The notes under the pieces were generated by a model. It was not told the origin of the DNA and made no database searches. It worked only from the letters and a program-made list of their open reading frames with translations. From Nitrospinota bacterium (GTDB lineage Bacteria; Nitrospinota_A; UBA7883; JACRLM01), in contig JACQXA010000004.1 of the NCBI GenBank assembly GCA_016208975.1, positions 559,501-623,500 of the forward strand: a DNA stretch of 64,000 nucleotides. The letters run 5' to 3'. The translations under genes and the position numbers were made by a program. How positions within the stretch are numbered: position 1 is the first letter of the stretch; the number at the start of each line of letters is the position of its first letter. Below, piece after piece: positions 39,072-50,678 of the stretch.

Positions 39072-39100
39072 CTTGACTATTTTTACCAGCGGGCATACAT
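39072..39100 (+). promoter_or_regulatory. Promoter of the porin-cytochrome operon
   Basis: TTGACT (39072-39077), exactly 17 bases, TACATT (39095-39100), followed by a leader of about 190 bases before the ATG at 39297. Confidence 0.55.
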
Positions 39101-39296
39101 TTTTATTATTGTGCGGATCCAATGCCGGAACAATTTAGGAGAGATATGGAATAAAAGTTTGCATTCGTCCAGTCCTGACCAGCGGAAGAGTTACTGAGGG
39201 AAATTGGCGCGGAATGATGGGCGGTTAGCCCAAGGGGTCACGACGCGCAGGCTACTTCTTCACGGGGCGCTTTAAAGGATTGAGAGGAGTACCGCA

Positions 39297-40577
39297 ATGC
39301 ACACTTCAAGGACAGCGCCGGCCGCAGGCGCCGGATTACTTGCTACTTTCATCTTTCTTTCATCAACCTTCCTGATTACCCACGACGCCAACGCGCTCTC
39401 GCAATGGGCAAGAAAATACAAGACATCCTGTTTCACCTGCCACACGGCATTCCCACGGCTGAATTATTACGGGGAACGGTTCTTGTGGAACGGGTATCAG
39501 GATCCGGACAATGAACAGCCCGACGGCGACCTGATGAAAAAGGTGATAAACAACGAGTTGGTCCTAGATGATGTGACAAACCTGCTGGGATTCAGGCTGA
39601 ACCTCACGCCGTTCAGGCTAAGAGAAAAAGCGCTGAACCTCGGCGGGGACGAAAAAGACCAGATCACCATAGGCGGGCCGGACTGGATACAGTTCTTCGT
39701 GGGGGGCTCCATATTCAAGAACGCGGCTTTCTTCATGGAACTGGAGTTCGCCGGGGAGACAGTCCACTACAACTGGTGGCATTTGAGCTACCACAACATG
39801 TTCGGCACACCGGCAGTGAACTTCCAGCTGGGCAACGTGTCGGCGCTGGAATTTTCCGCCCAGACGGACAGGCTACGGATTTTCCCCAACTACTCTTCCC
39901 CTCTTTACGCCGTTAAAACCTCCAATGGCACCGGTGACGACAGCCTTGGCATAAGCCAGGCCCGGCCGGCGATCCAGTATTATGGATACGCGGGGCCGGC
40001 GCTGTGGTGGGCCGGGGTAAGCTCCGGCAAGACCGCCGCCGACGTGAACGACAAGATGTTCTACTGGGGCGGGCTCCGCTACACCGTAACCGAAGATATG
40101 GAGAGCGCCATAGAGGGGAGCAGTGTAACCCTATGGGCCTTCCAGGGGGAGGACGGGAAGAACACCGCCGCGTCGGACACCGTGTCCGCCTCTTACCTCA
40201 CTTCCACCAGCAAGAGGTACCAGGCGGCTGGTAACCTGCGGTGGAGGGATATTGACGTCATCGGAAGCTACGTATGGGGCGACGATGAGGACGGAAAGCT
40301 TTCAACCTCCGCCAATGACAAGTTCGAATTCAAGGGTTACAGTTTCCAGGCGGCCTGGCAGATAAACAAGATGTGGTACACGGGAGTGATGTACGACAAG
40401 GTGGAGAAAGACACCGGCTCCGGATTCACGGTGAGCGACCACCAGGTGATCCCGCAGATATCGTTCCTGCCCAAGGAAAACATGCGGCTGGGTTTCTACG
40501 TTAAGTTGGACATCAACGACGAGACTGGGCACACGAAGAAGAACGACTATTGGGTCAACTTCAGGGTGATGTTCTAA
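39297..40577 (+). CDS. Outer-membrane monoheme cytochrome-porin fusion
   Basis: A 426-residue protein with a signal peptide (cleavage near NALS, about residue 34), a c-type heme site CFTCH at about 44-48 in the context TSCFTCHTAFPRLNYYGERF, and then about 370 residues of alternating amphipathic strands ending in a C-terminal aromatic (NFRVMF), as in outer-membrane beta barrels. The layout (one N-terminal heme plus barrel) is that of Cyc2-type iron oxidases, but I cannot claim homology from sequence. It opens a four-gene cytochrome cassette. GAGAGGAG precedes the start. Role: electron transfer across the outer membrane (inferred). Confidence 0.82.
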   Translation: MHTSRTAPAAGAGLLATFIFLSSTFLITHDANALSQWARKYKTSCFTCHTAFPRLNYYGERFLWNGYQDPDNEQPDGDLMKKVINNELVLDDVTNLLGFRLNLTPFRLREKALNLGGDEKDQITIGGPDWIQFFVGGSIFKNAAFFMELEFAGETVHYNWWHLSYHNMFGTPAVNFQLGNVSALEFSAQTDRLRIFPNYSSPLYAVKTSNGTGDDSLGISQARPAIQYYGYAGPALWWAGVSSGKTAADVNDKMFYWGGLRYTVTEDMESAIEGSSVTLWAFQGEDGKNTAASDTVSASYLTSTSKRYQAAGNLRWRDIDVIGSYVWGDDEDGKLSTSANDKFEFKGYSFQAAWQINKMWYTGVMYDKVEKDTGSGFTVSDHQVIPQISFLPKENMRLGFYVKLDINDETGHTKKNDYWVNFRVMF

Positions 40578-40593
40578 GTTGGAGGCTTCCCCA

Positions 40594-40986
40594 ATGAACG
40601 CTATTACCAGGATCGCCGTTGCGGCGGCATCCGTCTGGCTATGCTCGTCACCCCCGGCGCTGGCCGGGGATGACGGCAAGACCTTATTTATAAACGAGGG
40701 TTGTGTAAACTGCCATTCGGTGAAATCGGCAGGCATTACAGTGATGGAATCCGCCGAGGCGAAGGAGGAGTTGAAAGAGCAGGCGGCGGAAGGGGCCAAG
40801 GCTCCGCCGGACCTCTCCGGTTTGGCGGCGAAGCGTGACGCTGATTTCCTGGACAAGTACCTTCGCAAGAAGATAGCCATTGACGGCCGCAAACACAAGA
40901 AGAGGTTCAAGGGGAGCGACGCGGAGCGTGAAACGCTTATCACGTGGATCTTGGCCCTTAAACCAGCCGCCGGGCAGGGTAAATGA
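40594..40986 (+). CDS. Periplasmic monoheme cytochrome c
   Basis: A 130-residue secreted protein: signal peptide (about 1-25, ending SSPPALA), then a single CVNCH heme site at about 38-42 in DDGKTLFINEGCVNCHSVKSA. A Lys/Glu-rich middle (AEAKEELKEQAAEGAKAPPDLSG) precedes LAAKRDADFLDKYLRKK. The C-terminal Met/His ligand is not certain. GGAGG 8 bases before the ATG fixes the start. It sits between the porin fusion and the tetraheme gene, so it is the likely shuttle between them. Confidence 0.85.
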   Translation: MNAITRIAVAAASVWLCSSPPALAGDDGKTLFINEGCVNCHSVKSAGITVMESAEAKEELKEQAAEGAKAPPDLSGLAAKRDADFLDKYLRKKIAIDGRKHKKRFKGSDAERETLITWILALKPAAGQGK

Positions 40987-41594
40987 AACTGGCGCTCCTC
41001 CTGCTTGCCATGTGTAACGCGGGCTTCATCGCTATCTTGTGGAAAGAGTGGGGCTTGCTAGGCGGGGGCGCCAGAAAACTTCTTGCCTTCATAAGCCTTG
41101 GGGTGTTCCCTTTGGTGTGGGGGGCCGGGGTGCTGGGCCAGGGGCTGGAAGAGGCGCAGAAGGTGGCATTCTGCGCCCAGTGCCACGTCATGACAGATTA
41201 CGTGAAAAGCCTGGAGGTGGACGATGACGAGCCGCTGTCCGCCTTCCATTACCAGAACAACCTGGTGCCCAAGGAAAAAGCCTGTTTCGCCTGCCACACG
41301 CAATACACCATGTTCGGCCCAATACGGGCCAAGCTACAGGGGCTGAGCCATCTTTACGTTTATTACATCAAGGGCGCTCCGGCGGGAAAGATCAGCCTTT
41401 ACTCCCCATACGATAACCGGGAATGCTTGAGATGCCACGAGTCGTCCCGGAAATATCAAAAACTGCGCATGCACAACAAGCCGGAAGAGATGTTCAAGAA
41501 GCTTGCGGACAATAAGCAATCATGCCTCGCCAAGGGTTGCCACGACCTGGCCCATCTTATCGAGGAGGAGGAATCAGATGACTCCGCAGGATGA
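40983..41594 (+). CDS. Membrane tetraheme cytochrome c (NapC/NirT/NrfH-like)
   Basis: A 203-residue protein. Two hydrophobic segments (about 3-20 and 33-53) anchor it, followed by heme sites CAQCH (64-68), CFACH (101-105) and CLRCH (148-152), and a fourth site CLAKGCH (181-187) with four residues between the Cys (CX4CH). The order and spacing recall NapC/NirT-type quinol dehydrogenases, except for the extra membrane segment and the odd fourth site. It probably exchanges electrons between the quinone pool and the monoheme cytochrome whose gene it overlaps by 4 bases. Confidence 0.82.
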   Translation: MKLALLLLAMCNAGFIAILWKEWGLLGGGARKLLAFISLGVFPLVWGAGVLGQGLEEAQKVAFCAQCHVMTDYVKSLEVDDDEPLSAFHYQNNLVPKEKACFACHTQYTMFGPIRAKLQGLSHLYVYYIKGAPAGKISLYSPYDNRECLRCHESSRKYQKLRMHNKPEEMFKKLADNKQSCLAKGCHDLAHLIEEEESDDSAG

Positions 41595-41811
41595 GCAAGC
41601 GGCAGAAGCGGCAGGGATACCACGGGGAATGAAAACAGCCCTGATTACCAACATGGCCGGGATGGTTTTCATGTTATTGTCGCTTTACGCCAAAAGCCCG
41701 TTTCAGTTTGTAGTGACGCTTGTCTCCGGCACCGGTTTTCTGCTGGCAAGCTTTGCGTTATGGCTATGGATGGTGTTCACCGAAGCGCGTGTTAAAGGGA
41801 TGTTCAGATGA
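41578..41811 (+). CDS. Small two-segment membrane protein of the cytochrome cassette
   Basis: A 77-residue protein with two hydrophobic segments (about 20-37 and 45-63) and an acidic N-terminus. The ATG at 41578 follows GAGGAGGAATCAG and lies inside the 3' end of the tetraheme gene (17-base overlap), which argues for coupled expression; a longer frame from 41503 is not needed. Unrecognised. Possibly an assembly or quinone-site subunit of the tetraheme protein (inference from position only). Confidence 0.65.
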   Translation: MTPQDEQAAEAAGIPRGMKTALITNMAGMVFMLLSLYAKSPFQFVVTLVSGTGFLLASFALWLWMVFTEARVKGMFR

Positions 41812-49617: not shown

Positions 49618-50094
49618 TTATTTCAACGATTCTAAAAACGCCGCCACATCCGCCACCTGCTCCGCGCTCAACACGCTGGTGGTGATTGTGGGTGGCATGA
49701 CGGTATCGGGGTTGTCCACCCTGGAGTCCGCGACTTTCTGGTAAATCCAGCTGGATGTGCGTTCTTTGCCCAGGTCCTTTTTGTACTTCACCAGCGACGG
49801 GCCGATGTTGCCGCACCCTTTCACCCCATCGGCGCAATGGCAGGCGGCGCAGTTGCCCTGGTTCACGTCTGAAAAAATCTTAAACCCGTTTTCCTTTGAA
49901 GATGTGTATCCGCCCGGGCTTTCATAATTTTTGGCTGGGGCCGGGATGTCTGGGAAAAGTTCCGCGTCACTCATCTTCAGCGCCTCCACCCCCAGCTTGG
50001 CGTCCTTTTTCTCCTGAGCCCACCCCTGGGGAGACAACGCCGCCGCCACGACGAATAGCGCCGCCACAAAGGTCATTACCAAGGTCTTTCTCAT
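49618..50094 (-). CDS. soxX: SoxX monoheme cytochrome c
   Basis: A 158-residue secreted cytochrome, small subunit of SoxAX. Signal peptide about 1-27; heme site CAACH (about 82-86) in GNCAACHCADGVKGCG; NIGPSL follows, and MPPTITTSVLS provides the Met ligand. Extra Cys residues (CHCADGVKGC) are frequent in SoxX. Its ATG overlaps the upstream thioredoxin stop (ATGA). Confidence 0.92.
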   Translation of the reverse strand: MRKTLVMTFVAALFVVAAALSPQGWAQEKKDAKLGVEALKMSDAELFPDIPAPAKNYESPGGYTSSKENGFKIFSDVNQGNCAACHCADGVKGCGNIGPSLVKYKKDLGKERTSSWIYQKVADSRVDNPDTVMPPTITTSVLSAEQVADVAAFLESLK

Positions 50095-50678
50095 TCGGCC
50101 CCCTCCTTCGTTTCCGGTTTGAACCAATGGTATCTCAAAAACTCCTGAAAACTCATTTTCCCGTAATGCCCCTCCCGGGCGTAAACCATGGCGGCCTTGA
50201 AATGTGGAGCCTGCCAAAACCCGGGGAGCCGGAAAGTCTCCCTGCCTTCCTTGTCGAAAAACACCACCGTAGGTGTGTAGATAACTTTCATTTGCCCGGC
50301 GAAACTCTTTTCGGTGAACGGCTTCCCGGCGAAATCCCCCATTTCCTTTGAACCAAAAATGTTCACCTCCATCGGATGGAACTTTTCGGACAGCGTCTTT
50401 TTTATCTCCGGCGCACTTAAAACCTCTTTCTCCATTCTTTCGCAGTATGGGCATCCCTCTTGCCAGAAATAGACCATCAGGGTACTTCCTTCGGAGTTGG
50501 CAATCCCCAACTCCTCTGGCATGGAGCCAAAATGTAACTTAAAAACCCCTGTGGCGTACGGATCCGCCGCAAATCCGGGGCCGGGCAGAACGACAAGTAA
50601 AAATAGCGCCAGAGCCACAAAGCGCCTTACGCCCTGCGGAATGAAAAGCCCGCCCACGGTAAATACGCCTGGTGTCAT
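50091..50678 (-). CDS. soxW: Thioredoxin-like protein, SoxW type (first gene of the sox cluster)
   Basis: A 195-residue secreted thioredoxin-fold protein: signal (about 18-38), then LMVYFWQEGCPYCERMEKEV with CPYC, and YTPTVVFFDKEG carrying the cis-Pro. Probably reduces SoxY or other Sox disulfides. It starts the sox operon and overlaps soxX by four bases. It differs from the downstream thioredoxin in active-site dipeptide and length, so the two are not recent duplicates. No soxV (CcdA-like) reductant is in the window. Confidence 0.82.
   Translation of the reverse strand: MTPGVFTVGGLFIPQGVRRFVALALFLLVVLPGPGFAADPYATGVFKLHFGSMPEELGIANSEGSTLMVYFWQEGCPYCERMEKEVLSAPEIKKTLSEKFHPMEVNIFGSKEMGDFAGKPFTEKSFAGQMKVIYTPTVVFFDKEGRETFRLPGFWQAPHFKAAMVYAREGHYGKMSFQEFLRYHWFKPETKEGAE

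Follow-up and report, generated by a model that had tools for sequence, protein, structure and literature searches.

Four consecutive genes on a contig of a Nitrospinota bacterium form a conserved cassette, and we think it rather likely that they specify a minimal envelope-spanning conduit linking the menaquinone pool to the exterior, with export of electrons somewhat likelier than uptake. The window, that is, the whole stretch analysed, covers 64,000 nucleotides (JACQXA010000004.1, positions 559,501 to 623,500), and positions below are counted from its first letter. The genes, called P1 to P4, and the signal preceding them are as follows.

39286-39291, forward strand: Shine-Dalgarno-like AGGAGT 5' of P1 (direct sequence reading).
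39297-40577, forward strand: P1, fused monoheme cytochrome and predicted outer-membrane barrel of a Cyc2-like sister clade (open reading frame and translation, 426 aa).
40594-40986, forward strand: P2, exported class I monoheme cytochrome c in an MtoD/Cyc1-like position (130 aa, PF00034, E 5e-9).
40983-41594, forward strand: P3, NapC/NrfH-type tetraheme membrane cytochrome, putative quinone oxidoreductase (203 aa, PF03264, E 1.4e-10).
41578-41811, forward strand: P4, two-helix inner-membrane protein, putative partner subunit of P3 (77 aa, small open reading frame directly 3' of P3).

The translated reading frames bear out the four genes and positions given by a first-pass annotation of this DNA, together with both overlaps, of exactly 4 bases between P2 and P3 and exactly 17 bases between P3 and P4. 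The single promoter that it placed before the cassette found no support: the two upstream candidates with a -35/-10-like pattern (39073-39101 and 39082-39109) fall within chance expectation, three promoter-like matches being observed in the upstream region versus 1.7 +/- 1.4 expected. A terminator was sought on the cassette's strand and none was found. The GC content of the cassette is 0.559, versus 0.562 for the window, and on this base composition we reject a recent import. P1, P2, P3 and P4 carry 1, 1, 4 and 0 heme motifs, respectively.

P1 ends in a phenylalanine and contains one CXXCH (CFTCH, residues 45-49). By the published definition (Keffer 2021, PMC8406198), a Cyc2 protein has at least 365 aa, exactly one N-terminal CXXCH, the motifs AxPxFAR[Q/K][T/Y] and PxL, a 16-stranded barrel and Fe(II) oxidase activity. 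P1 agrees with this definition in size, in its single heme motif near the N-terminus, and in the PRL found four residues after it (CFTCH-TAF-PRL). However, the place of the AxPxFAR[Q/K][T/Y] motif is taken by ALSQWARKY, its spacing to the CXXCH being conserved (heme region: ALSQWARKY-KTS-CFTCH-TAF-PRL). The P1 clade reads Ax[ST]xW[AS]RKY at this place: in all six members compared, P is replaced by S or T and F by W, and the W is invariant in a nine-member alignment of the clade. Because the diagnostic AxPxFAR is replaced by AxSxWAR, we reject the assignment of P1 to Cyc2 proper; judged by its sequence, it belongs to a clade that is sister to Cyc2 in the superfamily of fused cytochrome-barrel (Cyc2-like) proteins. 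The earlier reading of P1 as a Cyc2-type monoheme protein with a barrel is supported as to overall design, in that the P1 clade aligns with barrels bearing the canonical motif over 389 columns, the barrel part included (hhalign probability 100, E 1.8e-41), but not as to the motif that defines Cyc2.

Profile searches of 385 genomes with P1 returned a tight set of close relatives (E 1e-88 or better, five genomes, the window's among them) and, with weaker scores, a wide range of single-heme barrels. The P1 clade, with ten close members, is separated from 29 other barrels with an SH-aLRT support of 100. No Pfam or NCBIfam family covers P1, and the Pfam scan gave no recognisable catalytic domain. 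P1 has no relative among solved structures, whether searched by sequence or by profile, none among viral contigs and plasmids, and no match in PHROGs. Its AlphaFold2 model, built from only two sequences (P1 and its homolog in L002, a Kiritimatiellales MAG), has a pLDDT of 28, too low for use. The outer-membrane barrel is predicted from homology, from composition and the C-terminal Phe, both of which agree with a barrel, and from a weak signal of strand periodicity.

The same superfamily includes a second type of single-heme barrel, with motifs such as AIPAFSKKY, which is widespread in the window's class and occurs in the window's own genome (L051:8448-10815, on contig C4 at about 2,117,400-2,119,800; also L044, L045, L046, L048, L050 and L054). 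In seven loci its immediate neighbour is a gene for a HAD phosphatase, after which there is usually a small, Cys-rich gene resembling YkgJ; no cytochrome lies nearby. Two outgroup barrels from different genomes (L088:820-3351 and L093:565-3158) each have a same-strand exported pentaheme cytochrome of ~450 aa on their 5' side, which is possibly another barrel cassette. A barrel with the canonical Cyc2 motif (L098:427-2781) adjoins a gene for cytochrome c oxidase subunit II (COX2) with a fused cytochrome c, as one would expect if iron oxidation fed electrons to oxygen.

The first-pass annotation had proposed a search for the four genes as a syntenic block in other genomes, and such a block was found. 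P1-P2-P3-P4 occurs in the identical order in a second phylum (L101, genome G219), and P1-P2-P3 in a third (L102, G066), on a contig that ends 166 bases past P3. Since the order is shared with other phyla, we reject a chance juxtaposition of the four genes. P1-P2 is found in a further locus (L120, G433). In two others (L104, G378; L118, G401), P1 is followed by a monoheme cytochrome and then by a heptaheme NapC/NirT protein of 508 and 504 aa, respectively, with 3 TM helices, one CX3CH (CGKLCH or CGKMCH) and six CXXCH. L002 holds the C-terminal part of a heptaheme NapC/NirT-type protein, then P1 and P2. In the remaining three of the ten members of the clade (L103, L119, L121), P1 stands alone, with no cytochrome neighbours. 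Phylum-wide searches place the P1-clade genomes in five phyla (the window's, that of G219, that of G066, that of G378 and G401, and that of G317, G433 and G458), and a sixth is possible with L002. The distribution of the clade is sparse and patchy; in two of its phyla, for example, members occur in 1 of 9 genomes and in 3 of 39. A NapC/NirT-type quinone module lies at most two genes from the barrel in 6 of 10 P1-clade loci, whereas no such module is that close to any of the 29 outgroup barrels (Fisher p 6e-5). This value overstates the association, since the loci are non-independent and for many of the outgroup barrels the visible flank is no longer than about 0.3-1.5 kb.

The heptaheme proteins of L104 and L118 have all the hallmarks of ImcH, a quinol oxidase of Fe(III) reducers: 495-519 aa, 3 TM helices, one CX3CH and six CX2CH (PMC6295460). 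ImcH homologs are implicated only in quinol oxidation (PMC6295460).

P2 has a signal-peptide-like N-terminus, one CXXCH and a PF00034 match above cutoff. Its homologs adjoin P1 in L002, L101, L102 and L120, and P3 in L041 and L105. P3 has two predicted N-terminal TM helices and four c heme motifs, CAQCH, CFACH, CLRCH and an atypical CX4CH (CLAKGCH). With this membrane anchor and a PF03264 score of 41.6 bits (cutoff 24.1), it falls in the NapC/NirT/NrfH superfamily, as the first-pass annotation had it, and NrfH (2j7a) is the best PDB match to the profile of its family (E 3.9e-6). However, P3 scores far under the curated NCBIfam equivalog cutoffs (TIGR03153, 31.9 vs 134.2; TIGR02161, 28.4 vs 310.6; TIGR02162, 24.7 vs 478.2), and we reject it as an NrfH, NapC or TorC equivalog. 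His 89, 164 and 191 are invariant in 13 sequences of the family, and His 123 nearly so; these four are candidate distal heme ligands. P4 has two predicted TM helices, and a match to MgtC lies under the cutoff and was disregarded. A P4-like two-helix reading frame directly follows P3 in seven genomes (the window's and those of L041, L042, L040, L101, L106 and L107), which suggests that P4 is a subunit of P3.

Relatives of P3 occur in 12 of the 385 genomes, and their tree is weakly resolved, including on whether P3 moved together with P1. In another class of the window's phylum (L042), P3-P4 comes after a DmsE-family decaheme cytochrome and an MtrB/PioB barrel, each scoring above its curated cutoff (TIGR03508 and TIGR03509), together with a triheme cytochrome. 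In L105, P2-P3 is divergent from a decaheme and MtrB/PioB pair (PF11854 above cutoff), and a cd1-type cytochrome also neighbours the P3-family gene. In L040, P3-P4 follows a C-terminal MtrB/PioB remnant of 102 aa. L041 has P2-P3-P4 without an adjacent barrel, and L106 and L107 have an octaheme cytochrome, then P3-P4. Given the octaheme, cd1-type and tetrathionate-reductase-like neighbours (L106, L107, L105 and L040), P3 is not devoted to outer-membrane conduits.

Two of these loci merit a word of their own. The remnant in L040 (4738-10439) has a tetrathionate-reductase-like Mo/FeS/NrfD operon on one side and P3-P4 on the other, which suggests that this genome lost a decaheme conduit by deletion or replacement. 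In L108 (3698-8379), a monoheme gene and a tandem pair of tetraheme genes resembling P3 adjoin the gene of a membrane cytochrome that has 11 hemes and a cytochrome-b-like part; the locus also has a heptaheme gene, then a gene for a 674-aa protein without a Pfam match.

Modules are thus swapped on both sides: the P1 clade is found with P3/P4 or with an ImcH-like protein, and P3 with P1 or with MtrAB-type conduits. Such mutual replacement of quinone-side and outer-membrane modules is strong indirect evidence for an electron conduit through the envelope, and the simplest reading is that the cassette probably encodes one. The first-pass annotation had proposed a compact electron route over outer membrane, periplasm and inner membrane, and the proposal gains support from the conservation across phyla, the full-length alignment of P1, the likeness of P3 to NrfH and the P3 relatives beside MtrB/PioB. 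The quinone modules near six of the ten barrels of the clade, the menaquinone-biosynthesis gene that faces the cassette and the lack of an MtrB/PioB match in the window's genome also speak for it. The analysis establishes gene order, family assignments, conservation in several phyla and the exchange of modules, and from these we infer the barrel, electron flow, substrate and direction. P3 would exchange electrons with menaquinol at the inner membrane, probably anchored or stabilised by P4, and P2 would carry them through the periplasm. P1, with one heme at the periplasmic mouth of the barrel, would exchange electrons, in one direction or the other, with a soluble partner outside the cell that is small enough to fit into the pore. 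The arrangement would be that of the Mto pathway (MtoAB, MtoD and CymA/ImoA), with a single-gene monoheme barrel replacing MtoAB.

As to direction, we judge export from menaquinol somewhat more likely than uptake or Fe(II) oxidation, because of the role of ImcH in quinol oxidation, the reductase-like neighbours of P3, and the potential of menaquinol (about -80 mV), which is below that reported for a Cyc2 heme (+208 mV; both literature values). The P1 clade would then run opposite to Cyc2 and let electrons out through the outer membrane at the end of a three-part quinol-oxidising export chain, a specific reading that we hold tentatively but take to be quite possible. Alternatively, P1 may oxidise dissolved Fe(II) or another reductant, with P2 as carrier, P3 sending part of the electrons uphill to quinones and the rest going to terminal oxidases. 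The nearest characterised relatives of P1, the Cyc2 proteins, are indeed Fe(II) oxidases (PMC8406198), the window's genome has at least three strong heme-copper oxidase genes, and in Sideroxydans CymA/ImoA is proposed as the quinone reducer of the Mto pathway (PMC13390432). However, P1 lacks AxPxFAR, and the cassette is without an oxidase gene, unlike known cyc2 operons and the L098 locus with its COX2. Moreover, three P1 cassettes come with an ImcH-like module, a type known only as quinol oxidase, and electrons leaving a heme near +200 mV would have to move uphill to reach menaquinone (about -80 mV). We consider uptake unlikely.

A third possibility is that no extracellular partner is involved: P3/P4 and P2 would pass electrons from quinol to P1, which would act on a small molecule with a reductase or peroxidase-like activity in the periplasm or outer membrane, or P1 would be a redox-gated porin. 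The octaheme cytochromes, the cd1-type cytochrome and the tetrathionate-reductase-like operon near P3-family genes are compatible with such a role, as are the HAD phosphatase and YkgJ neighbourhoods, which are not redox ones, of other single-heme barrels in the window's class. P1, however, has one heme and no recognisable catalytic domain, and P3 is partnered at the outer membrane by an MtrB-type conduit, or by what is left of one, in three further genomes, so that we regard this possibility as improbable.

The first-pass annotation had also put the cassette next to sox and hydrogenase genes. They are close, with soxB, soxA and soxX (SoxB, A and X above curated cutoffs) 4-9 kb and [NiFe] hydrogenase genes 9-15 kb from the cassette, but not directly adjacent: both groups are on the opposite strand, and a menaquinone-biosynthesis decarboxylase gene (TIGR03701), which faces the cassette, and a phosphoglycerate mutase gene lie between. 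At 4-15 kb and on the other strand, they are neighbours rather than partners. We reject the cassette as part of a sox or hydrogenase operon, in view of the strand, of the genes between, and of the relative loci examined, where neither was recognised. The SoxX reading frame (window 49618-50454) is listed as 278 aa, and the SoxX model matches only residues 198-276; the true start is therefore probably well downstream of the listed one.

The gene set and order had been noted at first pass as not those of a described system. In the open-licence literature, as far as it was seen, we found the separate parts described, and no description of a Cyc2-like barrel paired with a NapC/CymA/NrfH/ImcH-type quinone module. 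We rate the cassette as a putative electron conduit of the porin-cytochrome kind whose modules are combined in a new way. Cyc2-like genes serve as markers of iron oxidation; the P1 clade is tied to quinol dehydrogenases, not to oxidases, and the cassette suggests that some Cyc2-like barrels may export electrons. The clade can be set apart by one motif (W for F, S/T for P). If the export reading is true, the cassette would be among the smallest gene sets for cross-envelope respiration, with a modular inner-membrane side (NrfH-like or ImcH-like) and an occurrence in at least five phyla. The four-gene unit is small enough to be tested in Shewanella.

Among known conduits, the cassette does not belong to the Mtr/Mto porin-cytochrome complexes, P1 being monoheme and PF11854 (MtrB/PioB) having no match across the window's genome, nor to PCC3, with its very-many-heme extracellular and periplasmic cytochromes, porin and inner-membrane protein, given 1, 1, 4 and 0 heme motifs. 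P1 resembles the Cyc2 of Acidithiobacillus, Mariprofundus and Gallionellaceae in its signal peptide, N-terminal CXXCH, PxL, length above 365 aa and fused predicted barrel. It differs in that the neighbours of its clade are quinone-linked cytochromes, whereas those of Cyc2 are terminal oxidase genes, which published cyc2 operons include. P3 resembles NrfH, NapC and CymA in its PF03264 match, with NrfH as best solved relative, but has an extra N-terminal helix and a CX4CH motif and scores far below equivalog cutoffs. The proteins of L104, L118 and probably L002 resemble ImcH of Geobacter (about 500 aa, 3 TM helices, and CX3CH with six CX2CH in L104 and L118); they differ in adjoining a Cyc2-like monoheme barrel, and the window uses the tetraheme P3 instead. 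With the Mto pathway of Sideroxydans, the cassette shares an outer-membrane conduit (predicted in the case of P1), a periplasmic monoheme cytochrome and an inner-membrane NapC/NirT tetraheme protein in one cluster. However, one monoheme barrel stands in place of the decaheme MtoA and 26-strand MtoB, and P3 brings two predicted TM helices, a CX4CH as fourth motif and the extra subunit P4.
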